Source: Planctomycetota bacterium
GTDB lineage: Bacteria > Planctomycetota > UBA8742 > UBA2392
NCBI GenBank assembly: GCA_027493625.1
Contig: JAOSKM010000002.1
Coordinates: 682,001-746,000 of the forward strand
Direction: 5' to 3'
Length of the DNA stretch: 64,000 nucleotides
In this document: in pieces, positions 13,694 to 62,559 of the stretch
How the letters are laid out: the number at the start of each line of letters is the position of its first letter
Position numbering within the stretch: the first letter of the stretch is position 1
Notes under the pieces: generated by a model
Database searches by the model: none
Told to the model about the DNA's origin: nothing
The model's input: the letters and a program-made list of their open reading frames with translations, nothing else
Position numbers and translations under genes: made by a program

Positions 13694-14054
13694 TTATGGA
13701 TTTTCGATTTTGGATTTTGGATTGATGGTTAACGGGTTCGTACCAATCCAAAACGCAGAGCGTCCTCGTGCTGCGCACTTGCGTCGGTTTTTTACGCGAA
13801 GGAGCGAAGGGGGCGAAGTTCGCGAAGAGTCTTCCCTGTAGGGAAAGCCCTTTGCGCCTCCGCGCCTCCGCGTGGCTTTGTAAAACTGCGGCATCGCGCA
13901 GAGCACGCAGAGTACGCAGAGGTCTTCCTGTCATTTTCTCTGCGAACTCTGCGTGCTCCCGCCTTCGCCGAGGCTTCGTCGTGCAGGCTGCGCGAGGTTG
14001 CTGTTGCCTTTCCTGCTCTTCGCGTCCCTTCGCTCCTTCGCTTCTTCGCGTTAA
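13694..14054. repeat. Nested inverted micro-repeats between ABC permease and ATPase genes
   Basis: Outer arms 13794-13818 (acgcgaaggagcgaagggggcgaag) and about 14018-14051 (cttcgctccttcgcttcttcgcgt); inner arms 13898-13922 and 13938-13958; adjacent GATTTTG heptamers. Confidence 0.8.
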
Positions 14055-14122
14055 ATCAGCTGCGGGAGCGCGGGCCTTCTTGCTTAGTGCATCTTCGTGT
14101 GTCTTCGTGGGCCCAACGCAAT

Positions 14123-14806
14123 TCATGCGGCCACCTCCGAAAGGAACTGGCCGTCGGCCATCTTCAGTGTTCGCTGGGTGTGTTTCTCGGCCAGCTCGGG
14201 GTCGTGGGTGACCATCACCAGCGTGGTGCCGGCGCGGTGCGATTCATCCAGCAGCGCCATGATCTGCTCGCTGGTGGCGGTGTCGAGGTTGCCCGTGGGC
14301 TCGTCGCACAGCAGCAGCTTGGGGTCGTTCACCAGCGCCCGCGCGATCGCCACGCGCTGCTGCTCGCCGCCGGACATCTCGCTGGGCACGTGGTTGGCGC
14401 GCTTGCCGAGGCCCACGCGCTCAAGCAGCGCGTGCGCGCGTTTTTTGCGCTCAAAGCGCCCGATGCCCTGGAACACCAGCGGCAGGGCCACGTTTTCCCA
14501 GGCGCGCAGCGAAGTCACGAGGTTGAAGCTCTGGAAGATGAAGCCGACGGTGGTGCGGCGATACAGGCTGAGCTCGGTCTTGGACATCTCGGCCAGCTCG
14601 GTGCCGTTCACGCGTATGCTGCCGCGCGAGGGGCGGTCCAGGCCGCCCAGCAGGTTCAGCAGCGTGCTCTTGCCCGAGCCGCTGCGCCCCAGCAGGGCCA
14701 CGAATTCGCCCTGTTCGATGTTCAGGTCAATCCCGCGCAGAGCCTCAACCACCTCGCCGCCGAGGTGGTATTCGCGCCACAAGCGTGTTGCCTCAACCAG
14801 TGCCAT
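14123..14806 (-). CDS. ABC transporter ATP-binding protein (LolD/MacB type)
   Basis: [43 protein letters not shown]. Confidence 0.94.
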   Translation of the reverse strand: MALVEATRLWREYHLGGEVVEALRGIDLNIEQGEFVALLGRSGSGKSTLLNLLGGLDRPSRGSIRVNGTELAEMSKTELSLYRRTTVGFIFQSFNLVTSLRAWENVALPLVFQGIGRFERKKRAHALLERVGLGKRANHVPSEMSGGEQQRVAIARALVNDPKLLLCDEPTGNLDTATSEQIMALLDESHRAGTTLVMVTHDPELAEKHTQRTLKMADGQFLSEVAA

Positions 14807-14891
14807 TGCGAACCTGCGGCCAGACAATACGTTATTTCAGTATTGCACGCGGCGATTTCTGCACCTGTGTCGCCGAGCCCGAGGGGAACGC

Positions 14892-15350
14892 ATGAAAACG
14901 GCGGCGCTATTCCTTTTATCCATCTGCCTGCTGGCAGGCTGCGGCGGCGATAACAAGCCGGCCGGCGACGGCGGCGACCCCCTGCGCGAGCGCGCCAAGG
15001 CCGCCGAGGCCAACCTGGTGAAGGTGCGCGACGCGGTGGCCGCGTATTACGCCAAGCACAACAAGGCGCCGGAATCGGTCAGCGACCTGGCGGCCTTCGG
15101 CATCAAGGAAGCCGAGCTGGCCAACGAGGATTACTCCGAGCTCGGCTATGCCTTCTACAACCTGGAATTCGACCCGGCCGGCAAGCTGACGCGCGGCTGG
15201 CTGATCGCCACGCCGATGGCCGACCGCGAGGCGCTGAAGGTGCGCATGAACGCCGTGAGCGGCGAGTTTGATTACGTGGGCCGCGACGAAGACTTCGGCC
15301 GTGCCCCCAGCGACAACGGCTGGAGCAACACGCCGCCGGCAAACGAATAA
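14892..15350 (+). CDS. Lipoprotein, pilin/GspG-like soluble domain
   Basis: MKTAALFLLSICLLAGCGGD lipobox. Confidence 0.65.
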   Translation: MKTAALFLLSICLLAGCGGDNKPAGDGGDPLRERAKAAEANLVKVRDAVAAYYAKHNKAPESVSDLAAFGIKEAELANEDYSELGYAFYNLEFDPAGKLTRGWLIATPMADREALKVRMNAVSGEFDYVGRDEDFGRAPSDNGWSNTPPANE

Positions 15351-15371
15351 CCGCGCGGGGTCTGCCCGACC

Positions 15372-16064
15372 CTAGGCGCCTTCGCTGCGGGTGCCCTGGC
15401 GGAACGGCTGCAGGCCGTGGGTTACGTCCGGGCCCATGCCGGCCGGGCTCAGCGGATAGCGGCCGTCCTTGTCTTTGCCGCTGCGGGCCAGGCCCAGGCT
15501 TTCCATGAACTCGTCGTTGTTCTTGAGCAGGCGTGCCTTGTCGTAGATGAAGTCGCCGCGCTTGACGCCCACCTGGTTGTAGGTGGTGCTCATGGCGATG
15601 GCATCCTTGGGGCAGGCCTCGACGCACATGCCGCAGTAGATGCATTTAAGCATGTCGATTTCGAACACCTCGGGCGCCTTGAAGCGCTGGGCGCCGAACT
15701 GGTCGACGTCGGTGGCGTCGCCCACGATGGTGATGCACTCGGCCGGGCAGGCCGTGCTGCACATGAAGCAGGCGACACACTTGATGTTGCCCTTGTCGTC
15801 GACCTTCAGGTAGTGCTCGCCGCGATAGCCGACGGCCGGCACGTGGCGCTGGCGCTCGGTGGATTTTTCGCCCACGTAGTCGATGGTGGTGCTGGGGCGG
15901 AACATCATCTTGAAGGTGTTGACGAGGCCTTTGACGATCTCGACCAGGTAGATGCGTTCCCAGAAGTTGAGCTTGCGCTCGTCCCCGTAGTCTTTCTTCG
16001 GCTTCTCGCCGGTCATGATAGACCGCACGTCGCCGTGTTCCGTATGTTCGGTATGGGTGCTCAC
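15372..16064 (-). CDS. nuoI: NADH-quinone oxidoreductase subunit I (2x[4Fe-4S] ferredoxin)
   Basis: CVACFMCSTACPAECI and CIYCGMCVEACPKDAI. Confidence 0.92.
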   Translation of the reverse strand: MSTHTEHTEHGDVRSIMTGEKPKKDYGDERKLNFWERIYLVEIVKGLVNTFKMMFRPSTTIDYVGEKSTERQRHVPAVGYRGEHYLKVDDKGNIKCVACFMCSTACPAECITIVGDATDVDQFGAQRFKAPEVFEIDMLKCIYCGMCVEACPKDAIAMSTTYNQVGVKRGDFIYDKARLLKNNDEFMESLGLARSGKDKDGRYPLSPAGMGPDVTHGLQPFRQGTRSEGA

Positions 16065-16154
16065 AACGGTGTCCTCAAACCCGTACTGCCCGACCCGCGA
16101 CTATAGAAACCCCCCGCCCCCTGTCATGGGGGTTGGGGCGGGCGCGGTGTGACC

Positions 16155-17067
16155 CTAGTGGGCATGGGGCGGGCGTGGCTGTGGCGGCCTGGGACCAGCT
16201 TGTGGCGGGCGCGCCGCGCCAGGAGCCGGTCTCGGGCCTGGCTGCGGCGGTCGCTGGGCGCCGGGGGCCGGTCGCGGGCCTGCCTGGGGCGGGCGCGGAC
16301 CGCCCTGCATGGGCTGCGGACCGCGGGTTGCCGGGCGCGGACCTGCCTGCGGCCCGGGGCCGGGGCCATGCGGCATACCCGGGCCCTGCGGCATGCCGGG
16401 GCCAGGCGGCGGACCGAAGTTTCCTCGCGGCGGAAGCTGCGGCATGGGGGGCGTCTTCTTCTTGCGGCCGAGCACGAACACGCCCACGCCGCCGCCGGTG
16501 CCGGCCAGGCCCAGCACCAGCAGGATGGCGCCGAAGCCGCCCTGGGGTTCCTTGTTCAGCTCGATGATCTTGAAGTTGTTGTCGACGTGGCCCAGGCTCT
16601 TGAGCAGACGCTGGTCCTCGCTGCTGAGGTCAAGCCCGGTCTGCACCAGGCCGCGCATGGTGCGCACTTCGTAGATGCGGTTGGCGTTGGCGATGAGCCA
16701 TTTTTTCGTCGTTTTCGTGGTTCCAGCACTGCTCCATGAGCTGCTGTTTTTCCTTGTCATCGACCTTCACGAAGGCGCGCACGGGGTTGGGGTCCTCGTC
16801 GCTGGCCCAGCAGGCGACGTAGTAGTCGTGGGTGGTATGGGTGGTGACGCCCTTGCGCTTGTGCTCGATGTCGATGCGCGCGCTGGCGCCCCAGTCGATG
16901 TGCACTTCGCTGAGTTCAAGCCATTCGGCGTCGGGCGGGCTGGCGCACCAGTCGGCGTACTTCATCTGTACGGGCGACGAGTTGCGCATCGCCACCATCA
17001 GCTTGTGTCCGCCGACCACGATGCCGGCAATGCCTGCCACGATAAGCCCCAGAGCGATGCGCCACAT
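16155..17067 (-). CDS. Membrane protein with Pro/Gly-rich C-terminus (frameshifted at A6)
   Basis: ORF 16630-17067 continues in the frame of ORF 16155-16760 across T6 at 16701-16706; NDEK/KWLIANANRIYEV. Confidence 0.6.
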
Positions 17068-17312
17068 GGTTGGTCCCCCAACGGTCTCACAAGCCGAAAG
17101 AGCGGAGTATATTCCGCGGAGGCGCAGAGCGGGAACAAGTTTTTCAGAAGTCGCGCAAACCCGCCCGGATCAGCGGCTTTCGACACGGTCGGCACCCCGC
17201 CCCCCTGTCATGGGGGTTGGATTGCACGAAACAGGAGCCCGGCCTGCGCGACGTTGCCCTGGCGTAGTCGTGAGCGCAAGCGACGGGTGGACATGCGATG
17301 ACGTGCCTGGCG

Positions 17313-17654
17313 TCATTTCCCCAACTCGGCCAGCACCTGGCCGATCCGGCTGAACTGGAGCTTGCTGCAGGCGGCGTCCGCTCCGGCCTTCAGCATGGCC
17401 TGGTTCTTTTCGTCGAACGCGCTGACGGCCACCAGTTTCGGGCGTGGGTTGCGGCTGGCAAACTCCTGCACGAGTTCGACGCCCTTGCCGTCATCCAGGT
17501 CGAAGTCGATCAGCAATACATCCCACGGAGCGCCAGCCAGCAAGTCGCGCGCTTGAGCCAGTGAAGGTGTCACGGTTACTTCGTCGTTGCGGAGGAAGGC
17601 AGGGCAGACCTGCTGCGCGAACGTCGCGTGGTTTTCGACGAACAGAATGCGCAT
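17313..17654 (-). CDS. Single-domain response regulator receiver
   Basis: MRILFVENHATF..., VLLIDFDLDDGKGVEL. Confidence 0.82.
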   Translation of the reverse strand: MRILFVENHATFAQQVCPAFLRNDEVTVTPSLAQARDLLAGAPWDVLLIDFDLDDGKGVELVQEFASRNPRPKLVAVSAFDEKNQAMLKAGADAACSKLQFSRIGQVLAELGK

Positions 17655-17706
17655 GTTCGCTTACCGGTCGCTTGCGCTCCCGGCTCCTGTCTCGTGGTTC
17701 GCGGGC

Positions 17707-18390
17707 TTATCCGAGGCCGCTGGTGGACATCTGCAGTAGCGGGATGATTACGGCCGCTACTATGCCGCCTACCACTACCGCCATGAAGACGATCATGATG
17801 GGTTCGATCAGGCCGGTCATCCTTTGGATGCTGATGTCGATCTCTTCATTATAGGCGTGGGCGATGCGCTCCAGCAGCTGCTCCAGCTCGCCGGTCTGTT
17901 CGCCCACCGCCACCATGTAGCCCACCACGGGCGGGAAGATGCCGCTCTTCTTGATCGGCGTGCTGATGTCCGTGCCCTCCACGATGCTGTCGTGGATGCC
18001 CTGGATCACCTCCTGCATCGCGCGGTTGCCCACGATCTTCTTCACGATCCGCAGCGCCTCCAGGGCCGGCATGCGTGAGCGCAGCAGCACCGCAAAAGTG
18101 ATGGCGAAGCGGCTGACGGCCGTCTTCTTCAGCAGGTCGCCGAACAGGGGCGTCTTGAGCTTGAGTGTGTCCCACTTGAGGCGGAAGGCGTCCTGCTGCA
18201 AAGCGCCCTGCAGGAAGAACACGCCGATCAGGGGGCCCTTGATCAGCACCTGCCAGTAGGTGGACATGAAGGTGCTGAGGGTGATCAGGATCTGCGTGGG
18301 GAGCGGCAGCGGCACGTTCTGGGCGACCAGGGTTTCCGTGATGCGTGGCACCACAAAGGTCATCAGCAGAATCACCACCAGGGTGCTCAC
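17707..18390 (-). pseudogene. Partial duplicate of pilC/gspF (C-terminal half)
   Basis: Near-identical to 19214-19905; homology stops abruptly at about 18383. Confidence 0.85.
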
Positions 18391-18440
18391 CGTCGCGTGC
18401 GCTCCGGTATTCTGGTTCCGGGTAGCCGCCTGAATGATTT

Positions 18441-19001
18441 CTATTTCACATCCGCGCGGACTGTCAACGTCTCGTCGGTGCCGTTCGGCACCTGTCGCGT
18501 TAACGTGATTTCAATTTCGGTGGACTTGGAGTCTTTGGCGTTTCGGATTGCCGACTCAAGATTTGACTTCGACGTGATCGGGACACCGCCAGCAGAAGTC
18601 ATAATATCACCCTTTTTAATCACCGACGACTCCGGCACCTTGGCTCGTGGACTGATCCCCAAGATAGTTTTCATGTCTGCCGCATATATGACGGCATACT
18701 CCATTGCCAGCAATTCCGTCGTCGTGATACGACTACTTCCTCCGGCATCATCGAGTGCGCCCCGGGTTTTGATTCGAATCCACTCGGGTTCCCTGGGATC
18801 CTCTACGGTGAGCAGAAAGCTCTCACCAGTTTGTTGATTGATTCGAATGACGCCGGTCGAGGTATCCACAATCCGCCACGGCAGCATTACCGGACTCTCA
18901 CTGTCCCCTTGTGCCGATGTGGAATTAACCGCGCAAGCCACGAATACGACGATACCGAGCGCGAGAGGCGCAAGAACTCCACGTTTTATCGTCATGTGCA
19001 T
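18441..19001 (-). CDS. Secreted PDZ-like protein in a lower-GC segment
   Basis: Signal peptide; VIKKGDIMTSAGGVPITSKSNLESAIRNAKDSKSTEIEITLTR PDZ-like. Confidence 0.6.
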   Translation of the reverse strand: MHMTIKRGVLAPLALGIVVFVACAVNSTSAQGDSESPVMLPWRIVDTSTGVIRINQQTGESFLLTVEDPREPEWIRIKTRGALDDAGGSSRITTTELLAMEYAVIYAADMKTILGISPRAKVPESSVIKKGDIMTSAGGVPITSKSNLESAIRNAKDSKSTEIEITLTRQVPNGTDETLTVRADVK

Positions 19002-19213
19002 GACCCCATACGTGTGTTTGATAAATACTTATTTCATGCAAGTAACGAGGAGCGTAGCCCAGACGCTATGCACCCAGCGTACAAGCACCTGATACCCAAC
19101 ATCCTCGGTCGAGCCATTCGTTTTGACGGCAACAAGCACGAACATCGTTCCTACCCATACATGGTGGTAATATGAGGTAACCTCTATGCAGACTACCGCG
19201 TTCAGGCAACAAA

Positions 19214-20854
19214 CTACCCCAGGCCGCTGGTGGACATCTGTAGTAGCGGGATGATTACGGCCGCTACTATGCCGCCTACCACTACCGCCATGAAGACGAT
19301 CATGATGGGCTCGATCAGGCCGGTCATTCTTTGGATGCTGATGTCGATCTCTTCATTATAGGCGTGGGCGATGCGCTCCAGCAGCTGCTCCAGCTCGCCG
19401 GTCTGTTCGCCCACCGCCACCATGTAGCCCACCACGGGCGGGAAGATGCCGCTCTTCTTGATCGGCGTGCTGATGTCCGTGCCCTCCACGATGCTGTCGT
19501 GGATACCCTGGATCACCTCCTGCATCGCGCGGTTGCCCACGATCTTCTTCACGATCCGCAGTGCCTCCAGGGCCGGCATGCCCGAGCGCAGCAGCACTGC
19601 AAAGGTGATGGCGAAGCGCGAGACGGCCGTCTTCTTCAGCAGGTCGCCGAACAGGGGCGTCTTGAGCTTGAGTGTGTCCCACTTGATGCGGAAGGCGTCC
19701 TGCTGCAACGCGCCCTGCAGGAAGAACACGCCGATCAGGGGGCCCTTGATCATCAGCTGCCAGTAGGTGGACATGAAGCTGCTGATGGTGATCAGGATCT
19801 GCGTGGGCAGGGGCAGCGGCACGTTCTGGGCGATCAGGATCTCGGTAATCTTGGGCACCACGAAGGTCATCAGCAGGATCACCACCAGGGTGCTGACGGT
19901 CAGCATGATGGCGGGGTACATCATGGCGTTGATGACCTTGTTGCGCAGGCGGTTCTGGTTCGCCAGGTACTCGGCGATGCGCGTCAGCACGTCGTCAAGC
20001 TGGCCCGAGGCCTGGCCCGCGCGCACCATGTTCACGAACAGGGTGTTGAAGTAGCCGGGGCAGGTCTCCAGCGCGCTGGCGAAGTCGAGGCCCTGGCTGA
20101 CCTGCTCACGCAGGTGGCGCAGGGTCTTCTGCATGCCCGGGCTTTCCGCCTGTTCGATACATGCGGTCAGGGCCTGGGCCAGCGGAATACCGGAGTGCAG
20201 CAGGGTGGCGAGCTGGCGGGTGAAGCTGCTGACCTCATTGAGGTTCTGGATCTTGTCCGTGCCCTCGCTGCTGCCGGTGTCTTTCATGCGCGCGATCGAC
20301 AGGATGCACATCGCCGCCAGCACGCCGTACACCAGGGCGAATGCGCCCGACACGTAGTTGTTCTCGCTGACCAGCAGGATGAACGGCGGCACGCCGTCCA
20401 GGATCGCGAACAGCGTGGTCACGGCCAGCGCCCAGGTGCGGCCCTTCAATATCACATAGCCGAACATGCCCGTCGCGATCGCGGAAACCACCCGCACGGC
20501 AACGTCGATGCCGGTGAGCGCGCCCTCGACAGCCTCGCCCCCGACGCTGACGGCCGGCTGGTTACGCCAGTCCAGCACCAGCTGCAGCAGCATCACGCCG
20601 GCCGCGATGATGGCCAGGGTGCCGGTGTACTGCACGACCTTGGGCAGCTCGGCCGAGACGACGACCTTCTTGCGACCCATTTCGTCCTGCACGACCTCGC
20701 GCTTGGCGGTGCTGCCGCGCACTTCGCTGATGTCGGTGACATAGATTTTCTGGTTACGCAGCTTTTCGCGCGCGTCACGGGCGGTGTCGGCGTCGATCAC
20801 GCCGCTGGCGGCCTTGCCTTTGGCGTTGAGGGCTTTGTATTCGAAAACCGGCAC
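19214..20854 (-). CDS. pilC: Type IV pilus / type II secretion inner-membrane platform protein
   Basis: MPVFEYKALNAKGKAASGVIDADTARDAREKLR; FTRQLATLLHSGIPLAQAL; duplicated T2SSF domain. Confidence 0.92.
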   Translation of the reverse strand: MPVFEYKALNAKGKAASGVIDADTARDAREKLRNQKIYVTDISEVRGSTAKREVVQDEMGRKKVVVSAELPKVVQYTGTLAIIAAGVMLLQLVLDWRNQPAVSVGGEAVEGALTGIDVAVRVVSAIATGMFGYVILKGRTWALAVTTLFAILDGVPPFILLVSENNYVSGAFALVYGVLAAMCILSIARMKDTGSSEGTDKIQNLNEVSSFTRQLATLLHSGIPLAQALTACIEQAESPGMQKTLRHLREQVSQGLDFASALETCPGYFNTLFVNMVRAGQASGQLDDVLTRIAEYLANQNRLRNKVINAMMYPAIMLTVSTLVVILLMTFVVPKITEILIAQNVPLPLPTQILITISSFMSTYWQLMIKGPLIGVFFLQGALQQDAFRIKWDTLKLKTPLFGDLLKKTAVSRFAITFAVLLRSGMPALEALRIVKKIVGNRAMQEVIQGIHDSIVEGTDISTPIKKSGIFPPVVGYMVAVGEQTGELEQLLERIAHAYNEEIDISIQRMTGLIEPIMIVFMAVVVGGIVAAVIIPLLQMSTSGLG

Positions 20855-21051
20855 TCAAGTTCTCCGGGTGTGGCGCAGTCACGCAGGCTGTAATCGTATG
20901 TAACGCACAAGGGGGCGGGTAGTTGTAAGCAAATGCCTGCCCGCCGCAGCATTGTGTGCCATGCTGTTTCCCACTAGACTTACAGTGCAATAATTCTCAA
21001 GCGGTCACTGCAAACCCGAGCCGGCCCGCAAACCGGCATGAAGGAGCGTCC

Positions 21052-22359: not shown

Positions 22360-22477
22360 TGGTATTGCCCGGCGGTAACTCATCGCATGCGGCAATGGTA
22401 AGCTGCTTGCGGTGTGGACCACTCGTGGTACATAGCCGGTAATCGAAATTCCTGAATCCTGAATCCGAAATCAACCC

Positions 22478-27395: not shown

Positions 27396-27525
27396 TTTTC
27401 GTGGCCTTGCCTTTCGTGTTTTCGTGTTTTTGTGGCCCGATTGCCCTTCAACATGAAGCGAACCACGGAATCAGCCACAAAAACACGAAAACACCAAAGA
27501 TACTGCCACAAAAGGCTACAGCACT
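27396..27525. repeat. Inverted micro-repeat, 8-nt unit (CACGAAAA)
   Basis: tttcgtgttttcgtgtttttgtggc ... gccacaaaaacacgaaaacaccaaag; abuts mutY stop. Confidence 0.8.
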
Positions 27526-32103: not shown

Positions 32104-32219
32104 TCCAGGTTACAGGGTACAGGTTTCAGGTTTCAGGGTTTCAGCCACTCGATGCTCCAGCGTTGATCGTATGTCTTGGTCTGAGCCGGCAGTTTCTGCC
32201 GCCTGCCTACTGCCGCCTC
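32104..32219. repeat. Period-7 micro-repeats (CAGGTTT and CTGCCGC words)
   Basis: caggtta|cagggta|caggttt|caggttt|cagggtt and ctgccgc|ctgccta|ctgccgc. Confidence 0.7.
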
Positions 32220-32975: not shown

Positions 32976-33069
32976 GGGCGGCGTGGGGCTTGGGACTTTG
33001 GGCCGTTACCCTGACCCTGAGAAGACAACTCAATAGACCGAACAACTGGTTTCGTGCGGCGAGCGTGGG

Positions 33070-33152
33070 AACCACGGGTAAACACAGGTAAACACGAGTG
33101 AGCACGAGTCGCGTGCGAACCTGAGCGTGTGCACCTGTGTTTACCTGTGGTT
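33070..33152. repeat. Inverted micro-repeat, 10-nt unit (GGTAAACACA)
   Basis: aaccacgggtaaacacaggtaaacacg ... gtgtttacctgtggtt. Confidence 0.75.
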
Positions 33153-33231
33153 CCATCGTAGTCGGTGATGCTCTGCGATCGCTGCGCTCCCCACGCGAGG
33201 TCTCTTTTGAGGCCATGCCTAGGACACGCCT

Positions 33232-34104: not shown

Positions 34105-34566
34105 AACCACGAAGGGCCACTAAGGGCCACGAAGAGCTTCTCTACAGAACGCGCCTGATCCACTCCAGCTTGCCTTTTGAGTTGAAGTTGATCAGCAGAC
34201 CAACCTTCTTGCCGGTCGCGCGGAGATAGTTGAACAGCTGTGCTCCTTCATCAGGCCCGATCTTCTTGATCGCCTTGATCTCCACCACGATCTCGCCAAA
34301 GCACAGGAAGTCCGGAATGTACTTCTTCTTGAGCTTGCGTTTCTTGTACTTCACGTGCAGTTCGGGTTGCTCCGTGAAAGGCGCGTCGCGGTCGAACATC
34401 TCGTAGCCGAAGGCTTCGTGGTACACGCCCTCCAGGAAACCGTGTCCGAGTTCGCGGTGTACTTCAATCGCCGCACCGATGATCGCGAACACTTCATTCT
34501 TCATGATCAGTTCCGCCATCTCGCCTGCCCGCCTTTCTTCGTGGCCCTTGGTGGCCCTTCGTGGTT
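34105..34566. mobile_element. TIR-bounded cassette carrying a GxxExxY gene
   Basis: AACCACGAAGGGCCACTAAGGGCCACGAAG (34105-34134) vs reverse complement of 34537-34566 AACCACGAAGGGCCACCAAGGGCCACGAAG (29/30). Confidence 0.7.
34142..34519 (-). CDS. GxxExxY protein (TIGR04256, PD-(D/E)XK-like)
   Basis: AAIEVHRELGHGFLEGVYHEAFGYE ... YIPDFLCFGEIVVEIKAIKKI ... QLFNYLRATGKKVGLLINFNSKGKLEWIRRV. Confidence 0.88.
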   Translation of the reverse strand: MAELIMKNEVFAIIGAAIEVHRELGHGFLEGVYHEAFGYEMFDRDAPFTEQPELHVKYKKRKLKKKYIPDFLCFGEIVVEIKAIKKIGPDEGAQLFNYLRATGKKVGLLINFNSKGKLEWIRRVL

Positions 34567-34727: not shown

Positions 34728-34939
34728 AACCACGAAGGGCCACAAAGGGCCACGAAGAGCTTCTCCTCAGTACACGCCGGATCCACTCCAGCTTGCCTTT
34801 TGAGTTGAAGTTGATCAGCAGATCAACCTTCTTGCCGGTCGCGTGCTGGTAGCGAAACACTGTGTTGCCTCGTTCCTGATTTGTGGCGGCATGTGCTACT
34901 CCCGCCTTTCTTCGTGGCCCTTGGTGGCCCTTCGTGGTT
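34728..34939. repeat. Internally deleted copy of the GxxExxY cassette
   Basis: Same 30-bp TIRs (34728-34757, 34910-34939); retains gatccactccagcttgccttttgagttgaagttgatcagcaga. Confidence 0.75.
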
Positions 34940-38878: not shown

Positions 38879-38881
38879 GTG

Positions 38882-38986
38882 ATTTTGGATTTTGGATTCT
38901 GGATTTTGGATTGGGTCGAGACACGGAGTTCACGGGCACGATGGAGGATTTGCGGTGACTGACAATCCAAAATCGCCGACCGGCTA
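38882..38986. repeat. Period-7 inverted micro-repeat (GATTTTG)
   Basis: gattttg|gattttg|gattctg|gattttg|gattggg ... caatccaaaatc; overlaps egtD start. Confidence 0.8.
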
Positions 38987-40775: not shown

Positions 40776-40905
40776 AACCACGAAGGGCCACGAAGGACCA
40801 CGAAGTGGCTGGTTGGTAATCGTTTCCTGAGCTGTGCATTCGCTTTCTCATTCAGCAATCCGCCACGAAAAGGACCTTAGTGGCCCTTGGTGGCCCTTCG
40901 TGGTT
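40776..40905. repeat. Empty mini-element with TIRs of the GxxExxY-cassette type
   Basis: AACCACGAAGGGCCACGAAGGACCACGAAG (40776-40805) and inverted partner 40876-40905. Confidence 0.75.
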
Positions 40906-41828: not shown

Positions 41829-41908
41829 AAATTACCAATAACCAATTAGCAATTACCAATTCAAGCGGTGTGCAGCCTGCATTGGTAATTGGTCATTGGT
41901 TATTGTTC
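41829..41908. repeat. Period-7 inverted micro-repeat (ATTGGTA), interrupted by IS4-type element
   Basis: ccaataa|ccaatta|gcaatta|ccaat and attggta|attggtc|attggtt|attgttc. Confidence 0.85.
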
Positions 41909-45727: not shown

Positions 45728-46145
45728 CGCAGGGGACTGTCCCCGAATCTGGGGACTGTCCCCGTTCTGGCACGCTCACCCCGCCGTCCAACTGCCCGTG
45801 AGCCACGAAAACACAAAAGCACAAAAGAACTACCCACGAAATGCCAACTGCAAAAAGCGGTTGTCCACCAAGTGCACGAAGTTCACCAAGAACTGCAACG
45901 GCTTAAGCCACGCGGGGCGTGGAGGCGCTAAGGGCTCTTTTGCAGCTCGAAAGCCGCTTGTGCTCAGGGAACGTGGCTCATGGGCGTCGCGCACCCGGGC
46001 GCCCTGGCGTTGTTTGCCGCTCGGCCCCACAAGTGACCGCCGAGCGCAAATCAGCCCTTTGCGCCCCCGCGCCCCGCGTGGCGAATGCTCTTCTTCGTGT
46101 TCCTTCGTGCCCTTCGTGGGCAACCGCAGTTGCTTTTCCCGCCGG
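45728..46145. repeat. Composite intergenic repeat cluster
   Basis: GGGGACTGTCCCC x2, CACAAAAG units, actgcaaaaagcggttgtccacc / gtgggcaaccgcagttgctttt inverted pair, ccccacaagtgaccgccgagc module. Confidence 0.8.
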
Positions 46146-46282
46146 GCGCGGCTTCTGGTCAGGGGCGTGACACATCGCCCACAGCGCGGGTGACTGACCC
46201 GGCGCAGCGCTCGAATTCAGCGGCAGGTTTTGTCCGGCGCGCTACTTCACAGCCCCGGGATGGCCGGTACGATGAAACGGTT

Positions 46283-48289: not shown

Positions 48290-48355
48290 CCGCGGCCGCT
48301 GGCTGTTGGCTGTTGGCTATTAGCTGACCGCCATTGGCCAATAGCTGGGAGCGCA

Positions 48356-50328: not shown

Positions 50329-50448
50329 GGGTCAGGTGGCAGGTTTCAGGGCACAGGGGACTGCCGACGGACAGCCTGCCCTTTCATCAGGCAGGCGAGA
50401 TGGGTAAGCACTGACCCCTGAAACCTGAAACCTGTAACCTGTAACCTG
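50329..50448. repeat. Period-7 inverted micro-repeat (CCTGAAA)
   Basis: caggtgg|caggttt|cagggca ... cctgaaa|cctgaaa|cctgtaa|cctgtaa|cctgATG; abuts start codon. Confidence 0.85.
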
Positions 50449-52258: not shown

Positions 52259-53617
52259 ATGCCTGACGATGCCGCCGAGCCGGTAGCCTTCTCCAGCCAC
52301 CTCGATGAGCTGCGCAAGCGGCTGATCTGGTCGCTGATCGGCGTGTTCATCGCTTTCTCATTTGTCTTCGCCACCTTCGCCGACGACATCGTGCGTTACA
52401 TCCTCGATATCGCCGTCGCCAGCCGCGACGGCCACCGCATCCAGTTCGTCGTCATCAACCCCATGGAAACCTTCAGCACCACCATGCGCGTCAGTCTGTA
52501 CGCGGCCGTGGTGTTTGCTTACCCGTGGGTGATGCTGCAGGCCTACCTGTTCATAGCGCCCGGCCTGTATCGCCACGAGCGCAGCTTCTTCCGTTTTGCC
52601 ATTCCCTCGATTTTTGTGCTGTTCATGGGCGGCGCGGCGTTCGGGCGCTACCTGCTGCTGCCTATCAGCATTCCGTTCCTGCTGGAGTTCAACGTCAACG
52701 AGTTCGGCGTGCGGGAAAACTACACCCTCGGCCAGTACCTGGGGCTGGTCTTCGCCATGACCTTCGGCCTTGGCTTCATCTTCCAGATTCCGCTGATCGT
52801 GGCGCCGCTGATCCGCTTCGGCCTGCTGTCGCCCGAGTTCTTCAAGAGCAAACGACGCTACACGCTGCTGATCGCCGTGATCATCGGCGCCGTGGTTTCG
52901 CCCACCGGCAGCCCGATCGACATGCTGCTGGCCGGCCTGCCGGTGTTCTTCCTGGTGGAGGGCGGGGTCTGGATCGGCCGACTGTGGAAGCGCCGGGTGC
53001 TGAAACGCGCCGAGAAAGAGGCGCTGGCCGCGGCCGAGCGCGGCGAGAAAGTGGACCCGGAGGCGCTGGTGGGCGGGCTGGCGGTTGACCTGGAGAAGAA
53101 GCTGCTCGAGTTCAGCCAGGGCGGGGCGCGCAAGTTCGCGCGCGAGCTGGTGGCTGGCTTCCGCGAAAGCGGCAAGGACATCGAGACGATCTTCGACGAC
53201 GACTACAAAGACAGCGACAAGCCGCCGGTAGAAGTGAAGCTCAAGCCCCGCAAGCCGAAGTTCGAGCAGGAAACGGCAACGGCGAGTGCCGAGTCCCGTG
53301 TCCCGAGTCCCGTGTCAACAGCGACTGCGGAGCAGCCATCCGAACCGCAAGACACGGGACCCGGGACCCGGGACACAGGACTTGCCGCAACCGACCCGGG
53401 ACCCGGGACACGGGACGCTGGACAAGCGGTACCCGACACGGAACAGGACTACCCCGACCGTCCCTGGGACGAAAACGTAGACGAGCAGCTGGCCCGCTAC
53501 ATCGAGGACCGCATCAGCCAGCGCATGGAGCAGTTCTTCGAGCGCGAGCTGCGCCCCTGGATGGACCGCATCGAGCACGAGCTGCAGGACCGCAACGGCA
53601 ACGGAAAGCACGAGTAG
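52259..53617 (+). CDS. tatC: Twin-arginine translocase subunit TatC with long C-terminal extension
   Basis: SHLDELRKRLIWSLIGVFIAF; MTFGLGFIFQIPLIV; AVVSPTGSPIDMLLAGLPVFFL. Confidence 0.92.
   Translation: MPDDAAEPVAFSSHLDELRKRLIWSLIGVFIAFSFVFATFADDIVRYILDIAVASRDGHRIQFVVINPMETFSTTMRVSLYAAVVFAYPWVMLQAYLFIAPGLYRHERSFFRFAIPSIFVLFMGGAAFGRYLLLPISIPFLLEFNVNEFGVRENYTLGQYLGLVFAMTFGLGFIFQIPLIVAPLIRFGLLSPEFFKSKRRYTLLIAVIIGAVVSPTGSPIDMLLAGLPVFFLVEGGVWIGRLWKRRVLKRAEKEALAAAERGEKVDPEALVGGLAVDLEKKLLEFSQGGARKFARELVAGFRESGKDIETIFDDDYKDSDKPPVEVKLKPRKPKFEQETATASAESRVPSPVSTATAEQPSEPQDTGPGTRDTGLAATDPGPGTRDAGQAVPDTEQDYPDRPWDENVDEQLARYIEDRISQRMEQFFERELRPWMDRIEHELQDRNGNGKHE
53289..53440 (+). repeat. Period-7 micro-repeat pair (GGGACAC) inside the tatC reading frame
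   Basis: cccgtgt|cccgagt|cccgtgt ... gggaccc|gggaccc|gggacac ... gggaccc|gggacac|gggacgc. Confidence 0.85.
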
Positions 53618-54067
53618 GCGAACTGGGTGGCGCCGACAATCCTGTCGGCGGTCGCGCCGATTCTGGCGCGACGATGTCGGCTTCGCTCCACTCAGCCGGC
53701 CCGACAAGATTGTCGGGCCCACCCCAATGGCAGCTATCGATGTCCAACAGTTACCGGCAGTTTTTTGTGGCAGTACCTTTGGTGTTTTCGTGTTTTCGTG
53801 GCCCATTGACGCGAAGAGCGCGAAGCTCGCGAAGAACAGCGTGTGCTTGCACGCGGACCGTTGCAGACCTTCGTGGCCCTTGGTGGCGCTTCGTGGTTCA
53901 CCTGTAGTTGCTTCTCGTAATCCGGTATGCTTCGGCCAGGTTTGCAGTGGCACGGGCATTCTTGCCCGCGCAAGCATTGGAACACGAAGGAGCGCAGAGA
54001 CATTCGCCCCCTTCGCTTCTTCGCGTAAAAGGACGAAGTTTCCCGCACCTCAAGGAGCAGCCGTCTC

Positions 54068-56367: not shown

Positions 56368-56406
56368 AGTCTTTCCTTACTGCGTGCGGGCGTGACGCCC
56401 GGGTGC

Positions 56407-56745: not shown

Positions 56746-56777
56746 GGGTCGCTCCTTGAAATTTCGTGCTTCCGCCT

Positions 56778-56811
56778 ATTGACTATATAACCATCAGGGA
56801 ATATAGTCAAT
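56778..56811. promoter_or_regulatory. Probable ArsR operator in divergent promoter region
   Basis: Perfect 11-bp dyad ATTGACTATAT-N12-ATATAGTCAAT. Confidence 0.75.
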
Positions 56812-56864
56812 TCCATAGATGTTCCTATAGCAACACCGGAACACGGTAACAAAAGGAGAAAGAC

Positions 56865-58190
56865 ATGACTGCCATCGCGACCAAGCCGTTCATCAAGCAG
56901 GTCACCATCGAGGGGGAAGGCTGCCTGGGCTACATCATCGGCGACCGCGCCAGCGGCAAGGCCGCCATCATCGACCCCCGCCACGACCTGGTGGATGAAT
57001 TCCTGGCCATCCTGAAGAAGGAAGGCCTCAAGCTCGAGCTGGTGATCGACACCCACACCCACGCCGACCACCTGTCCGGCGCCGCTGACCTCAAGAAGCG
57101 CACCGGCGCGAAGTACGGCATGATCCAGGGCACCCTGGTTGAGCCCGCCGACAAGGCGTTCGCCGACGGCGAGGTCTATCACCTCGGTGAAACCGAGTTG
57201 CGCGTCATCGCCAGCCCGGGACACACCCCGGACAGCCTGACCGTCTACGTCGACGGCAACCTGTTCACCGGCGACACCATGCTGATCGGCGGCTCCGGCC
57301 GTACCGACTTCATGGGCGGCGACGCCGGCGAGCTGTACGACAGCTTCCAGAAGTTCAGTGAATTCGGCGACGACGTGACCGTGTGGCCGGGCCACGACTA
57401 CCAGGGCCGCACACACAGCACGCTGGGCAAAGAGCGCGAGCACAACCTGATCTTCACGCTCGGCACCCGCGAGGCGGTGGTCGAGAAGCTTTCCGTGCGC
57501 GGCCCGCTGCCGCAGGGCATGGCCGAGATCCTGACCTTTAACCGCAAGGGCACCGACAGCGCCTCGCACATCGAGTGCAAGACCGTGCACGAGATGCTGA
57601 AGGATGACCCGCACGCCCTGCAGATCGTGGACGTGCGCAGCGCGCTGGAGTTCAGCGGCGACCACATCGAGGGCGCCTGGAACATCCCGCTCGAGGAACT
57701 GGAAAAACGCGTCACCGAGCTGAACACCGCCAAGGGCACCGTGGTGCTGACCTGCGCCACCGGCAACCGCGCCCTGATGGCCAGCCAGATCCTGCAGCGC
57801 CGCAAGTTCAACAACTTCAAGATCATGGACAGCGGCATGAACGGCTGGATCAAGAAGAAACTGCCCTACAACAAGGGCCGCCGCGTGCTCAGCCTGATGC
57901 GCCAGGTGCAAATCGGTGCAGGCCTGCTGGTGCTGCTTGGCATGGTGCTGGGGACCTTCGTGAATCCCTGGTTCTACGTCATCAGCGCGTTCGTGGGGGC
58001 AGGCCTCACCGTCGCCGGCACCACCGGTTTCTGCGGCATGGCGCTGGTGCTGATGCAGCTGCCCTGGAACAAAGTCGCGCCAACACCGGGCGGCGGCACC
58101 AGCGGCGGCTGCAGCGTGGGAGGCACGGCCTCCGGCGGCTGCGGAGTCGGCGGCGGGGCCGTCAGCGGCGGCTGCTCAGTCGGCGGCTAA
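56865..58190 (+). CDS. MBL-fold (persulfide dioxygenase-like) + rhodanese + DUF2892-like TM protein with Gly/Cys tail
   Basis: IDTHTHADHLSG; VDVRSALEFSGDHIEGAWNIPL; CATGNRA; GTTGFCGMALVLMQLPWN; GGCSVGGTASGGCGVGGGAVSGGCSVGG. Confidence 0.9.
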   Translation: MTAIATKPFIKQVTIEGEGCLGYIIGDRASGKAAIIDPRHDLVDEFLAILKKEGLKLELVIDTHTHADHLSGAADLKKRTGAKYGMIQGTLVEPADKAFADGEVYHLGETELRVIASPGHTPDSLTVYVDGNLFTGDTMLIGGSGRTDFMGGDAGELYDSFQKFSEFGDDVTVWPGHDYQGRTHSTLGKEREHNLIFTLGTREAVVEKLSVRGPLPQGMAEILTFNRKGTDSASHIECKTVHEMLKDDPHALQIVDVRSALEFSGDHIEGAWNIPLEELEKRVTELNTAKGTVVLTCATGNRALMASQILQRRKFNNFKIMDSGMNGWIKKKLPYNKGRRVLSLMRQVQIGAGLLVLLGMVLGTFVNPWFYVISAFVGAGLTVAGTTGFCGMALVLMQLPWNKVAPTPGGGTSGGCSVGGTASGGCGVGGGAVSGGCSVGG

Positions 58191-58263
58191 CTGAAACCGG
58201 CCGGTGGTCAGCCAAAGCGCTGGCCACCGGCCCAGGTTTCCGGGTCTGCGCCGTCTACCGGTC

Positions 58264-58362
58264 TGATGGCCACGAAAACACGAAAACACAAAAGGCACCA
58301 CACAAAAAGGACAAGGCAGTCTTTCGTGGCTTTCCTTTTGTGATTTTGTGTTTTTGTGGCCC
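58264..58362. repeat. Inverted micro-repeat, 8-nt unit (CACGAAAA)
   Basis: ggccacgaaaacacgaaaacacaaaagg ... ccttttgtgattttgtgtttttgtggcc. Confidence 0.8.
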
Positions 58363-58497
58363 CTACCATCGGGCGTCAGCACAGTCTGTCGCGCACTCGC
58401 TGAAGCGTTTCTGACTTGCCCGGCGGGAAGCGAAACTGCCGCCTCGACGTTTCCTGTATGGGCCCCGAAGCTATCGTGGAGCACCAAGGAGAAGCAC

Positions 58498-59586
58498 ATG
58501 CCCGTTGCTACGCTGGAGATGAAGGTCGTTGACTTCGGCCGTGACTGCAAGACCTACCTGCTGTGGGACGCCGCCAGTAAAGAGGCCGCGCTGATCGACC
58601 CGCGCTTCGACTACACGGCGGCGTACCTGAAAGAGCTGCAGGGCGCGGGCCTGAAGCTGAAGTACGCGATCGATACCCACACCCACGCCGACCACCTGTC
58701 CGGCGCCGACCGCCTGCGCAACCTGACCGGCTGCGCGATCGTGATGAGCGAGCACACCAAGTCCAAGGTCGCCGATTACAAGGTAAGCGACGGGGAGAAA
58801 CTCAAGCTCGGCGAGCACGAGCTGACCTTCGTGCTGACCCCCGGCCACACGCCCGACAGCATGAGCATCTTCGACGGCGCGCGCGTCTACACCGGCGACA
58901 CCCTGTTCATCGGCAGCGCCGCGCGCACCGACTTCATGGGCGGCGACGCCGGCAAGCTGTACGACAGCTTCCGCAAGCTGGAGGCGCTGGGCAAAGACGT
59001 CGAGGTCTGGCCCGGCCACGACTACAACGGCAAGCACAGCAGCACCATCGCCGCCGAGCTGCAGAACAACCCGCACTTCAAGGCCGACAAGGACGGTCTC
59101 AAGGCCATGCACCGCATGAAGGGCGAGCTGCCGGCCAACATGGCCGAAATCCTGAGCTTCAACAGCGAGGCCGGCCTGCCGGAAGACAAGATCATCCGCC
59201 CCGCCGACGTTGCGAAGCTGGGCACGCCGGGCAAGGACTTCACCCTGCTGGATTCGCGCTTTATCGACGAGTTCGAGGCCGGGCGCATCGAGGGCGCGGT
59301 GCTGATCCCGCTGCCGGAAATGCGCGATCGCTGGGCCGAGGTCGAGAAGCTGCCGCACCCCATCGTGAGTGTCTGCCGCAGCGGCGTGCGCGCCACCATG
59401 GCGATGATGACCGCGCGCCACGCCAACGATAAGGACTGGCTGCTGCTGGAAGGCGGCATGCAGGCCTGGCAGAAAGACGGCAAGCCGATGGTCAGCGACA
59501 GCGGCAAGCCGGACGTGATCAATTCAAAGTTCGCCACCGGGGGCAGCTGCGCCGCCGGCGGCGGGACATGCTCGACTGTGGGGTAG
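58498..59586 (+). CDS. MBL-fold (persulfide dioxygenase-like) + rhodanese protein with Gly/Cys tail
   Basis: IDTHTHADHLSGADRL; TGDTLFIGSAARTDFMGGDA; VSVCRSGVRA; GGSCAAGGGTCSTVG. Confidence 0.9.
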   Translation: MPVATLEMKVVDFGRDCKTYLLWDAASKEAALIDPRFDYTAAYLKELQGAGLKLKYAIDTHTHADHLSGADRLRNLTGCAIVMSEHTKSKVADYKVSDGEKLKLGEHELTFVLTPGHTPDSMSIFDGARVYTGDTLFIGSAARTDFMGGDAGKLYDSFRKLEALGKDVEVWPGHDYNGKHSSTIAAELQNNPHFKADKDGLKAMHRMKGELPANMAEILSFNSEAGLPEDKIIRPADVAKLGTPGKDFTLLDSRFIDEFEAGRIEGAVLIPLPEMRDRWAEVEKLPHPIVSVCRSGVRATMAMMTARHANDKDWLLLEGGMQAWQKDGKPMVSDSGKPDVINSKFATGGSCAAGGGTCSTVG

Positions 59587-59591
59587 AGAAC

Positions 59592-60672
59592 AAGGGGACT
59601 GTCCCCGCAGTTGGGGACTGTCCCCGTCTTCGAGCCTGGCGTCGAACAGCGAGTTACCAATAACCAATTTTCAATTGGCTGGCGTGCAGTAGCGCGGACA
59701 TTCTTGTCCGCGCTTTGAAACTGCATAGGCCACGCGGGAGCGCGAAGGCGCCAGGAGCCTCGCGGCACTTGAGCGCGACTCGTGTTCAGGGGGCGTCAGA
59801 CAACGCTGTGGCGCACCCTGGCGCCTTGGCGTTGTTTGCCGCTCAGCCCCACAAGTGACCGCCGAGCACCAATCAGCCCTCCGCGCCTCCGCGTGGCCTT
59901 AAGTAGTTCTTCGTGAACCTTCGTGCCCTTAGTGGGCAACCGCAGTTGCTTTCCAACCCGGGCGCGGCGCACGAAAGCCAACTGCAAAGGCGTTTGCCCA
60001 CGAAGCCACACGAAGTTCACTAAGAACTGCAACGGCATTAGCAACGCGAAGGAACTAAGAAGCGAAGAGTCCTTCGTTGTTCGAAACCGGTTTCTGTTCA
60101 GGGACGGGGATTCAACGCCAGGACGTAAAGAACGCCACGGCCTTCGCGTTACTCGCCTGACCATCGGCCGAACGACGGGCCGTAACGAAGGAGCCGTGGC
60201 GCGACTTGGCGGCCTGGCGTTGATCGCCGATCAGCCCCACAAGTGACCGCCGAGCACCAATCAGCCCTTTGCGCCTCCGCGCCTCCGCGTGGCCTGAAGT
60301 AGTTCTTCGTGAACCTTCGTGTCCTTGGTGGGCAACCGCAGTTGCTTTTCAAAGCGTGCGCGGCGCGCGCAAGGCGAACTGCAAAAAGCGATTGCCCACG
60401 AAGCCACACGAAGTTCACGAAGCACTTCAAACTGCATAGGCCACGCGGGGGCGCGAAGGCGCCAGGAGCCTCGCGGCACTTGAGCGCGACTCGTGTTCAG
60501 GGGGCGTCAGACAACGCCGTGGCGCACCTTGGCGCCCTGGCGTTGTATGCCGCTCAGCCCCACAAGTGACCGCCGCGCACCATTCAGCCCTCCGCGCCTC
60601 CCCGTGGCCTGTTGCCGTTTGCTTTTTTGGGGATTTGACGACAGGGACAGTCCCCTTCGGGGGCAGTCACTG
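59592..60672. repeat. Roughly 1.1-kb array of composite intergenic repeats
   Basis: Two near-identical modules about 59718-59880 and 60428-60590 with a diverged middle copy; ccccacaagtgaccgcc(g) at about 59847, 60235 and 60558; GGGGACTGTCCCC at 59594 and 59613. Confidence 0.85.
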
Positions 60673-60821
60673 GCCTGCCTCGAAAAACTTTCGGCTGGCG
60701 AGGCGCTTGGTTACGGGCTTTGCGGGCGATTGCTGGTTGCTGTGCCGGAAAACATCCCGCACCCCCGATTTTTGTCGCACTGGTCGGGATACTGCCGGGG
60801 TGACCAGAACAGGAGTTCGCT

Positions 60822-61244
60822 ATGTCCCGTTACCCCCATGTCAGACCCAGGCCGCAGCAGCACAAGCCGGCGCCCGCAAAGCCGGCCGAACAGACGCTGG
60901 ACCAGGACGCGCTGCGGCTCTACCGGCTGAAAGGCGGCGAGTTCATTGAGGCGGCCATCAAACGCCTCGAGAAGCTGCTCGCCCTGCACGACCGCGAAAT
61001 GGCCGAGCCCGACATCGAGAGCCTGGGCAAGAAGCGCTGGCTGGTTTCGCCCTCCATGGTGCTGCGCCTGCAGCGCGAGCTTGAGCGCTACCTCAAGATC
61101 CGCGCCGACCTGATCCAGCAGGTCTTCCAGCTCACGGCCGAGGGCTCCTCCGCCCCGGACGTGCCGCAGGTCACCCCGCCGCAGGCGAAGCAAGAGCGGC
61201 CGGAAAGGAGGCAGGCCGAATCGGCCGCCAGCGCTGTGGCGTGA
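60822..61244 (+). CDS. Hypothetical protein
   Basis: 140 aa ORF, helical, immediately upstream of rdgB. Confidence 0.55.
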   Translation: MSRYPHVRPRPQQHKPAPAKPAEQTLDQDALRLYRLKGGEFIEAAIKRLEKLLALHDREMAEPDIESLGKKRWLVSPSMVLRLQRELERYLKIRADLIQQVFQLTAEGSSAPDVPQVTPPQAKQERPERRQAESAASAVA

Positions 61245-61321
61245 CGGGCGGGAAGTGGTCAATAGAGGCTTTTCAAGGGCGGGCGGTAAGCCTAAATTCT
61301 GCCGCAACCCAGAAGGCCGTA

Positions 61322-62203
61322 ATGACCGCCAATCCCGTGAACATCGTTGTCGCCACCAACAACCGGCACAAGTTCCGTGAGATCAACCAGATTCTGCACG
61401 GTCTGCCGGGCATTGAGCTGCAGGCGCTGACAGCCTACACGGGCGTGCCGGACGTGCGGGAAGACGCCAGCACCTTCGCGGGCAACGCGCAGAAGAAGGC
61501 GCTCGAGATCGCGCGTTTCATCGCGCTGGTGGGGCACGTGGGTTTTGCCAGCCAGTCCACGGCGATCGACGACGACGATGAAACGGATTTCGAAGAGCTG
61601 TCCGCCAAGCGCCACCGCAGCACCAGCGGGCGCCAGCGCAAGGTAAGCCTGACGCCCGAAAGCATGCCGAAGGTGGAGCGGCCCCGCAGCCTCGAGCTGC
61701 TGGTGATGGCCGACGACAGCGGGCTTGAGGTGGACGCGCTGGGCGGCGCGCCGGGCGTGATCAGCGCGCGCTACGCCGGCCGACAGGGCGACGACGCGGC
61801 CAACAACGCGCTGCTGTTGAAGAACCTGAAGGGCGTGCCGCCGGAGAAGCGCAAGGCGCGGTTCGTGTGCGAGATCGCGCTGGCATGCCCGGAAGGCATA
61901 CTGTTCACGGTGCGCGGCACGGTGGAGGGCACGATCATTGACGAGCCGCGCGGCAAGGGCGGCTTCGGCTACGACCCGTTGTTCATGTATCCGCCGCTGG
62001 GCAGGACTTTCGGCGAGCTTCCGGCGGAAGAAAAGAACAAGATCAGCCACCGGGCAAACGCGCTGGCGAAGTTCAGGCTGGAGCTGGAGAAGCTGTTAGG
62101 GGAGGCGGCAGTTAACGGCGACTGCGGGAGTTCTCAATGGCGCGGCGGGAACGGAGCGGTTTTCGGAACCTCAACGTGTGGAAGAAGGCGATGGTCGCCG
62201 TAA
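61322..62203 (+). CDS. rdgB: XTP/dITP diphosphatase (RdgB/HAM1) with internal insert and altered C-terminus
   Basis: IVVATNNRHKFREI; VMADDSGLEVDALGGAPGVISARYAG; GKGGFGYDPLFMYPPLGRTFGEL; KNKISHRANAL. Confidence 0.9.
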   Translation: MTANPVNIVVATNNRHKFREINQILHGLPGIELQALTAYTGVPDVREDASTFAGNAQKKALEIARFIALVGHVGFASQSTAIDDDDETDFEELSAKRHRSTSGRQRKVSLTPESMPKVERPRSLELLVMADDSGLEVDALGGAPGVISARYAGRQGDDAANNALLLKNLKGVPPEKRKARFVCEIALACPEGILFTVRGTVEGTIIDEPRGKGGFGYDPLFMYPPLGRTFGELPAEEKNKISHRANALAKFRLELEKLLGEAAVNGDCGSSQWRGGNGAVFGTSTCGRRRWSP

Positions 62204-62559
62204 AACAGATCTACCAACTGACCCGCAGGTTCCCGAAAGACGAGCTGTACGCCCTGACCAGCCAGATTCGCCGCGCGGCCGCCTCGGTACCGATGAACAT
62301 CGCCGAGGGCTATAAGCGCCGGCGATACCCTGAAGACTATGTGCGGCTGCTGGTCACCGCACACGGTTCCCAGGGTGAAGTCGAAACAGCGATTGAGATA
62401 GCATTCATGCTTGAGTACATCACCGAGGCGGACTGCGAGAGACTGCTGGACGTGTACGACGAACTCGGACGTATGCTGAATGGCCTGATTGACAGCGTCG
62501 ACAAAGGCGCCAGTAAAAGTGACCGGTAGACCAGGGTAGTCAGCGGTGAACTGCCGCCT
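62103..62559. mobile_element. TIR-bounded cassette carrying a four-helix-bundle gene
   Basis: AGGCGGCAGTTAACGGCGACTGC (62103-62125) vs reverse complement of 62536-62559 AGGCGGCAGTTCACCGCTGACTAC. Confidence 0.6.
62137..62529 (+). CDS. Four-helix-bundle protein (S23/23S rRNA IVP family, TIGR02436)
   Basis: FRNLNVWKKAMVAVKQIYQLTRRFPKDELYALTSQIRRAAASVPMNIAEGYKRR. Confidence 0.92.
   Translation: MARRERSGFRNLNVWKKAMVAVKQIYQLTRRFPKDELYALTSQIRRAAASVPMNIAEGYKRRRYPEDYVRLLVTAHGSQGEVETAIEIAFMLEYITEADCERLLDVYDELGRMLNGLIDSVDKGASKSDR

Follow-up and report, generated by a model that had tools for sequence, protein, structure and literature searches.

Paired micro-repeat arrays around two kinds of gene

The stretch of DNA analysed here (the window; 64,000 nucleotides, C2:682001-746000 of the 4.7-Mb draft genome of a Planctomycetota bacterium, G000) contains small elements in which two short tandem arrays form an inverted pair around a small centre, and in some of these the centre holds a single gene. 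The element at 62103..62574 (+ strand) has period-7 arms at 62103-62123 (GGCGGCAGTTAAC..) and 62538-62574 (..GTGAACTGCCGCCTGCGGCCTGCCGCCTG; the word of this 3' arm is CTGCCGC). It encloses a four-helix-bundle (S23/IVP) gene at 62137..62529 (+) of the family TIGR02436 and PF05635, '23S rRNA-intervening sequence protein' (E=2e-35), whose product is 98% identical to a protein of a Planctomycetota metagenome-assembled genome. Genomes for comparison were of the same genus and family, the closest congener being ~92% identical; this element was found in two congeners and was missing from two others (G003 and G004). On the - strand, the element at 34107..34564 has period-10 arms (CCACGAAGGGCCACTAAGGGCCACGAAG / CTTCGTGGCCCTTGGTGGCCCTTCGTGG) around a GxxExxY gene at 34142..34519 (-) of PF13366, 'PD-(D/E)XK nuclease superfamily', with its motif PDF..EIK intact. 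A second GxxExxY element with intact arms and an internal deletion follows at 34730..34937 (-). G003, G004 and G001 lack both elements at 34.1-34.9 kb, their two neighbouring genes being adjacent or overlapping, and G002 and G005 have one element only at the site. The period of the arms follows the gene family, and the elements therefore fall into two classes side by side and do not form a single superfamily whose words are interchangeable.

Upstream of the four-helix-bundle element, a gene at 61322-62203, which we take from its context to be RdgB-like, has a reading frame that continues across the 5' arm and into the four-helix-bundle gene; insertion of the element seems to have deleted the stop codon of the RdgB-like gene and so extended its product at the C terminus.

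Arrays exceed chance and lie between genes

Arrays were detected with Tandem Repeats Finder and a self-match scan in 464 kb of the genome (the window and 20 spaced 20-kb samples, 400 kb in all), counted from a score >=12 upwards and compared with shuffles that preserved local dinucleotides. All words named in an earlier, sequence-only reading of the window (the original prediction) were recovered. Across the 464 kb we found 24 arrays of period 7 (0 in shuffled sequence), 12 of period 10 (0.3) and 5 of period 8 (0); the arrays are non-random. Searches of up to 700 nt for a reverse-complement partner succeeded 40 times, against 8 and 3 in control searches for the complement and the reverse, and so the inverted pairing that had been described from the window is real and is present in the sampled 400 kb too. 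Period-7 arrays are intergenic in 25 of 28 cases (p=4e-14), and arrays of period 7, 8 or 10 prefer tandem, operon-like gaps (37/43; p=6e-4), where they stand directly 3' of stop codons and 5' of start codons. The window holds at least 13 two-arm loci, so the count of ten or more held up, though not the statement that all are intergenic and inverted: the GGGACAC arrays lie inside tatC, and some loci are single-armed. A clear arm is single at 22450, 32106 and 51862, the second arm is short at 13694, 38881 and 48294, and nested compounds occur at 13.7-14.05 kb and 45.8-46.1 kb. An Rfam scan of the window gave no matches. Micro-repeat arrays are ~5x denser in the window than in the 400 kb sampled elsewhere. 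That the elements supply TAG stop codons was considered and rejected, the frequency of TAG being the same as that of the genome.

The repeat period follows the gene family

In this genome four-helix-bundle genes occur at 14 places, and GxxExxY genes (TIGR04256) give 13 matches at 11 places. When the 250-350 nt on both sides of each gene were compared, inverted repeats flanked 13/14 four-helix-bundle and 8/11 GxxExxY genes but only 5 of 174 ordinary genes shorter than 900 nt drawn from the same genome, and two of these five encode REP-associated tyrosine transposases (RAYTs; REP, repetitive extragenic palindrome). In all genomes together the flanked genes were 53/72 and 34/43, respectively, against the same 5/174 (p=3e-42); loci from the wider library searches were the best-scoring ones, so that these 74-79% are not unbiased estimates, and loci within one genome are not independent, so that p-values here are nominal. 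The association with the two families, suggested at the outset from two copies, is thus stronger than could be seen from the window. Arms of four-helix-bundle genes in this genome are all of period 7, in many different words, and those of GxxExxY genes are of period 8, 9 or 10. Over all genomes, period 7 was found in 44/53 four-helix-bundle loci and 0/34 GxxExxY loci (p=3e-16), the latter having period 8-10 in 23. The pairing spans five phyla (Planctomycetota, Cyanobacteria, Bacteroidota, Verrucomicrobia and bacteria of the candidate phyla radiation (CPR)), being seen also in Anabaena, Flavobacteriia, Verrucomicrobia, one CPR genome and 26 further Planctomycetota loci. This, together with gene-less words that track the coding words, leaves the original prediction of a single superfamily unsupported. 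Period-7 arrays are also more frequent where the four-helix-bundle genes are: 12 in 387 kb of planctomycetes rich in them and none in 315 kb of planctomycetes without them (p=9e-4).

In GxxExxY arms a core resembling C(A/G)C(R)RAG is usually repeated in ~3 units, and the period varies because the linkers between cores vary in length. In both classes the arm measures ~30-37 nt whatever the unit, so that no unit number is singled out. Relatives of the four-helix-bundle protein in the PDB (2gsc and 2rld) have five chains each, and a correspondence of one repeat unit to each protomer of a pentamer was rejected. Among the GxxExxY proteins of this genome, the intact, armed L001-L006 keep the D..ExK catalytic motif and are putative nucleases, and the arm-less L008 and L009 have lost ExK. 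Of 76 coding copies, 70 have a co-directional gene upstream, compared with a background of 71% among ordinary neighbours (p=5e-6), which fits expression by read-through. No relatives were found in the phages and viral contigs searched. In Anabaena one four-helix-bundle gene (L147:1374-1960) lies between 101-nt inverted repeats that are 97% alike and reach past the heptamer array, so this element is perhaps young.

Gene-less copies share words with coding copies

A word no more than one base from a coding word of the same genome was found in 23 of 24 intergenic period-7 arrays (chance 23%; p=5e-14; the window's own coding element omitted). The idea of a two-part system of rare coding and many gene-less copies is supported. 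Within the window, the GATTTTG array at 13694..13753, with a short partner AATCCAAAA, has the word of coding copies L023/L024; the ATTGGTA inverted pair at 41830..41905 has both the word and the arm order of coding copy L027; and the inverted pairs at 33067..33154 (GGTAAACACA, period 10) and 58271..58358 (CACGAAAA, period 8) have the words of the GxxExxY copies L005 and L002, respectively. The CACGAAAA-type pair of period 8 at 27412..27498 has an arm order that is the reverse of that in coding copies. Genome-wide, CAGGTNNCAGGTNNCAGG occurs at 118 places and CCACNAAGNNCCACNAAG at 146, the reversed patterns at none, and the arm order is invariant among the listed places that pair up. As an inverted repeat reads identically on either strand, arm order was rejected as a marker of strand and treated instead as a constant feature of the element.

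The CCACGAAG subfamily has ~8 dispersed gene-less copies, in both orientations, with a conserved 19-nt loop (AACGGCGGGTCACGCTTTA) and conserved outer ends (GCAACTGC..GCAGTTG); whole copies have therefore been dispersed. Defined ends and repeated whole copies, as in miniature inverted-repeat transposable elements (MITEs), are thus seen in this subfamily but not in the CAGGTTT copies. About 8 copies of a dispersed ~165-bp repeat (CTGATCTCTGCATTAGCCC..GCAGTTGTCAGTA; L228-L236) enclose a CCACGAAG hairpin. Several loci in the window are compound: a GCGAAG-type inverted pair of period 8-9 at 13796..14049 encloses a GCAGAG inverted pair of period 9 (13897-13958), CACGAAAA / CACGAAG-type arms are nested at 45804..46118, and CACGAAAA, GCGAAG and CCACGAAG-type arms meet at 53778..53896, a compound missing in G003.

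Presence and absence between species

The original prediction had proposed a search for polymorphic presence between strains; empty sites were found in congeners, that is, between species. A CAGGTTT array at 32106..32210, at the start codon of a - strand gene with a GGCGGCA-like array on its opposite side, belongs to an insertion of 126 nt that is missing in G003 and G006, where the neighbours overlap (TAATG/TGATG). The CAGGTTT / CCTGAAA inverted pair at 50333..50448, between the stop and start of two + genes, is missing in G003 and G004, as is the gene-less CCACGAAGGG inverted pair at 40777..40903, of the CCACGAAG elements, whose counterpart in G002 has a nested GGTAAACACA element in its loop. 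A GATTTTG array with a short partner (38881..38973) is missing in G003, G004 and G006, and the genes there overlap (ATGA/GTGA); the GGTAAACACA pair is missing in G003 and G005. G002 in turn carries extra elements of its own. A junction may hold different words in different species: the GGCTGTT array with a short partner at 48294..48345 is replaced by a CAGGTTT array in G001, and the cas6-cas4 junction of cyanobacterial plasmids is occupied by different words or empty. Copy number changed by whole units between orthologous copies of the window and G002. Four-helix-bundle genes number 14, 11, 8, 4, 3 and 2 in six congeneric genomes, all of them incomplete drafts.

Four-helix-bundle genes with different words lie between cas6 and cas4 in type I-D CRISPR operons of two cyanobacterial plasmids (L219, L225), a different hairpin element, GTAGGTTGGGTTGACGC..TTAACCCAACCTAC (L223:1300-1580), occupies the same junction in Dolichospermum UHCC 0315A, and in Anabaena UHCC 0204 such a gene adjoins a CRISPR array (L147). 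The 5' arm of an Anabaena sp. 90 element (L219:1100-1430) has grown to several dozen GGTGACA/GGGAACA units.

A proposed model of mobile hairpin elements and its alternatives

We propose, with about even confidence, that these are small intergenic mobile hairpin elements of two parallel classes, working in the manner of REP doublets forming hairpins (REPINs) and RAYTs, with gene-less copies moved in trans. Each element is a DNA inverted repeat with short tandem arrays as arms (~30-35 bp), a coding copy of class 1 (period 7) carrying a single gene of the 23S rRNA intervening-sequence family, for a four-helix bundle, and one of class 2 (period 8-10) a single gene for a GxxExxY PD-(D/E)XK-type nuclease. 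Coding copies point the same way as the host gene upstream, and read-through from it presumably expresses them. Their protein probably reads the arrays of the arms as DNA, whether as duplex, cruciform or single-strand hairpin, and probably assists in cutting, copying or placing the element. Gene-less copies that share the word would be moved in trans, as proposed for REPINs by RAYTs, and slippage with hairpin-templated copying would keep both arms alike even as the word changes. The anatomy, the link of gene to period, the shared words, the presence and absence between species and the orientation in operons are shown by the analysis, whereas mobility, binding of the arms by the protein, movement in trans and a substrate of DNA and not RNA are inferred. 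The RAYT genes of this genome have REPs of their own and no arrays, so that three gene-repeat pairs coexist. The model draws on all these observations, and also on the constant arm order, the dispersed CCACGAAG copies, the arm mismatches and the catalytic motifs.

Several observations do not sit easily with this model. Twenty CAGGTTT loci have common arms around unrelated loops of ~10 to 460 nt, some enclosing other elements, and the word of one Anabaena coding copy (ATTGTCA) recurs at ~45 dispersed places, mostly as single arrays; a simple MITE picture therefore fails for some class-1 copies. No target-site duplication or conserved target was recognised at junctions compared with congeners, which are not readable at base level because identity is ~92% at best, and within one genome no two coding copies at separate sites were found to be near-identical. 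About a quarter of the coding genes are without clear arms, and the GxxExxY protein L007 keeps its motif without them. The common arm length of the two classes indicates a constraint on stem length as much as recognition of the unit. We know of no nuclease or recombinase activity in the four-helix-bundle family.

One alternative, which we consider rather unlikely, is that the elements act as RNA, as the original prediction had suggested, in the manner of 23S rRNA intervening sequences (IVSs): the RNA stem would be cut by RNase III, the four-helix-bundle protein would bind RNA, and spread would use an RNA intermediate and a host reverse transcriptase. The class-1 protein is indeed the IVS protein and is weakly related to bAvd, the genome has one good match to RVT_1, and the Coxiella IVS combines a 28-bp stem cut by RNase III with strain-variable tandem GACAGAT heptamers (PMC4990558). 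However, mismatches in the arms, scored by strand, were 83 sense G-U against 84 A-C, so that maintenance of the arms at the RNA level is without support, although an RNA intermediate may still be involved. The lack of a G-U excess favours a cause at the DNA level, be it recognition of the arms by a protein or copying templated by the hairpin; young mismatches would dilute such a bias. Furthermore, the gene of class 2 is one for a PD-(D/E)XK-type nuclease, and no rRNA was found in 20 four-helix-bundle loci. The sense orientation of coding copies within operons suits this alternative, but is also expected if intact genes require host transcription. Another possibility, improbable and already disfavoured, is that the arrays are passive products of replication slippage, mirrored by template switching, with the genes as incidental neighbours. 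Whole-unit differences between window and G002 orthologues, heptamer variation in the Coxiella IVS (PMC4990558) and the many single arrays of Anabaena are in its favour. Against it stand the locking of gene to period in five phyla, the constant arm order, the words common to coding copies, the presence and absence of whole elements and the CCACGAAG family with its conserved loop and ends.

It is very improbable that an unrelated host transposase, above all the abundant RAYT (Y1), moves the elements as non-autonomous passengers. Y1_Tnp occurs at 24 places in the genome, but of the 12 best RAYT loci the 11 with inverted flanks have ordinary REPs of ~90 nt, none of them periodic, and the elements showed no further transposase as a common neighbour; RAYT was therefore rejected as the mobiliser. 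At least 12 RAYT-like Y1 transposase genes with differing REP-type inverted repeats occur in this one genome (L102-L113). A role in host regulation, with hairpins between cistrons adjusting translation or the stability of mRNA, is likewise improbable: positions directly after stops and before starts would suit it, and translational regulation has been proposed for TAACTGA heptamers (PMC4679880), yet the elements are missing at orthologous junctions of congeners, one junction can hold different words, the neighbouring genes are varied, and a gene junction is also the least harmful place for an insertion.

Relation to known repeats

Class 1 looks like the same kind of element as the IVSs of Leptospira and Coxiella, at other sites. 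Both place a PF05635 protein inside an inverted-repeat stem, and the Coxiella IVS has tandem GACAGAT heptamers of strain-variable copy number before its open reading frame, with a stem of 28 bp (PMC4990558). Class 1 is not itself an rRNA IVS, because it lies outside rRNA genes (Rfam found no rRNA in the 20 loci scanned). Unlike IVSs, the elements stand between protein genes, many to a genome, have arrays for both arms and many gene-less relatives, and include a second class with a different protein. With REPIN-RAYT systems (PMC3116915) they share hairpin doublets, many gene-less copies and few genes, each with its own sequence type; here too, inverted doublets of a common type are many per coding gene. 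The proteins differ, the arms are micro-repeat arrays in place of REPs, and no link of Y1 genes to periodic arrays was found at the RAYT loci of this genome.

The short tandemly repeated repetitive (STRR) sequences of cyanobacteria and the GGGAATC-type heptamers of Xanthomonas and Nostoc are likewise intergenic, of period 7 and variable in word; Xanthomonas GGGAATC heptamers form ~70 inverted pairs per genome, and neither these nor the GGGGA(C/T)T heptamers of Nostoc have a described linked gene (PMC4692102). By comparison, the four-helix-bundle genes found here in Anabaena and Calothrix have such arrays on their flanks, and the same protein family includes XCC0516 of X. campestris. The Anabaena arms are tandem intergenic heptamers as in STRR sequences, with the words TAGGGAA, ATTGTCA, GTCAGTT and TAGAATT, which we take to be published STRR words. 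The TAACTGA repeats of Beggiatoaceae are also intergenic heptamers of patchy distribution; they differ in being direct repeats of one word, read as regulatory, with no gene link reported (PMC4679880). The class-1 protein matches PF22296, bAvd of diversity-generating retroelements, weakly and below the cut-off, and homology of 2GSC to BPP-1 Avd has been reported (PMC10053308); unlike those retroelements, the elements examined have no reverse transcriptase, template repeat or variable repeat beside them. In the open-access PubMed Central (PMC) literature we found no link of heptamers outside rRNA to PF05635, no description of GxxExxY elements and no functional paper on GxxExxY, and class 2 is without a described counterpart there.

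Perhaps, and here our confidence falls somewhat short of even, these are small mobile elements of bacteria of a new kind: a protein not known as a transposase, whether a four-helix-bundle oligomer or a nuclease of PD-(D/E)XK type, would read the micro-repeat arms and mobilise gene-less hairpins in trans, STRR sequences, Xanthomonas heptamers and 23S rRNA IVSs all belonging to one element class. To our knowledge, the heptamer arrays of cyanobacteria, Xanthomonas and Beggiatoaceae have been reported without a cause, and both protein families are widely annotated without a function. The pairing of gene family with repeat period offers one testable answer to both, names candidate proteins that may read a given array, and places the puzzle of the rRNA IVSs within a much wider class of elements.

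Other repeats in the window

The coding GGGACAC inverted arrays at 53283..53441 (+) lie within the 3' end of tatC. The C-terminal extension of tatC (53220-53500) is made of GGGACAC/GAGTCCC arrays in G000 and G002; in G004 and G001 unrelated sequence of low complexity takes their place. Another repeat, dispersed and ~250-700 nt long, is present in the window at 59805-60520 and 45839-46152 and recurs at many places in G000 and G002, with several tandem copies at G000:C1:126102-127726.

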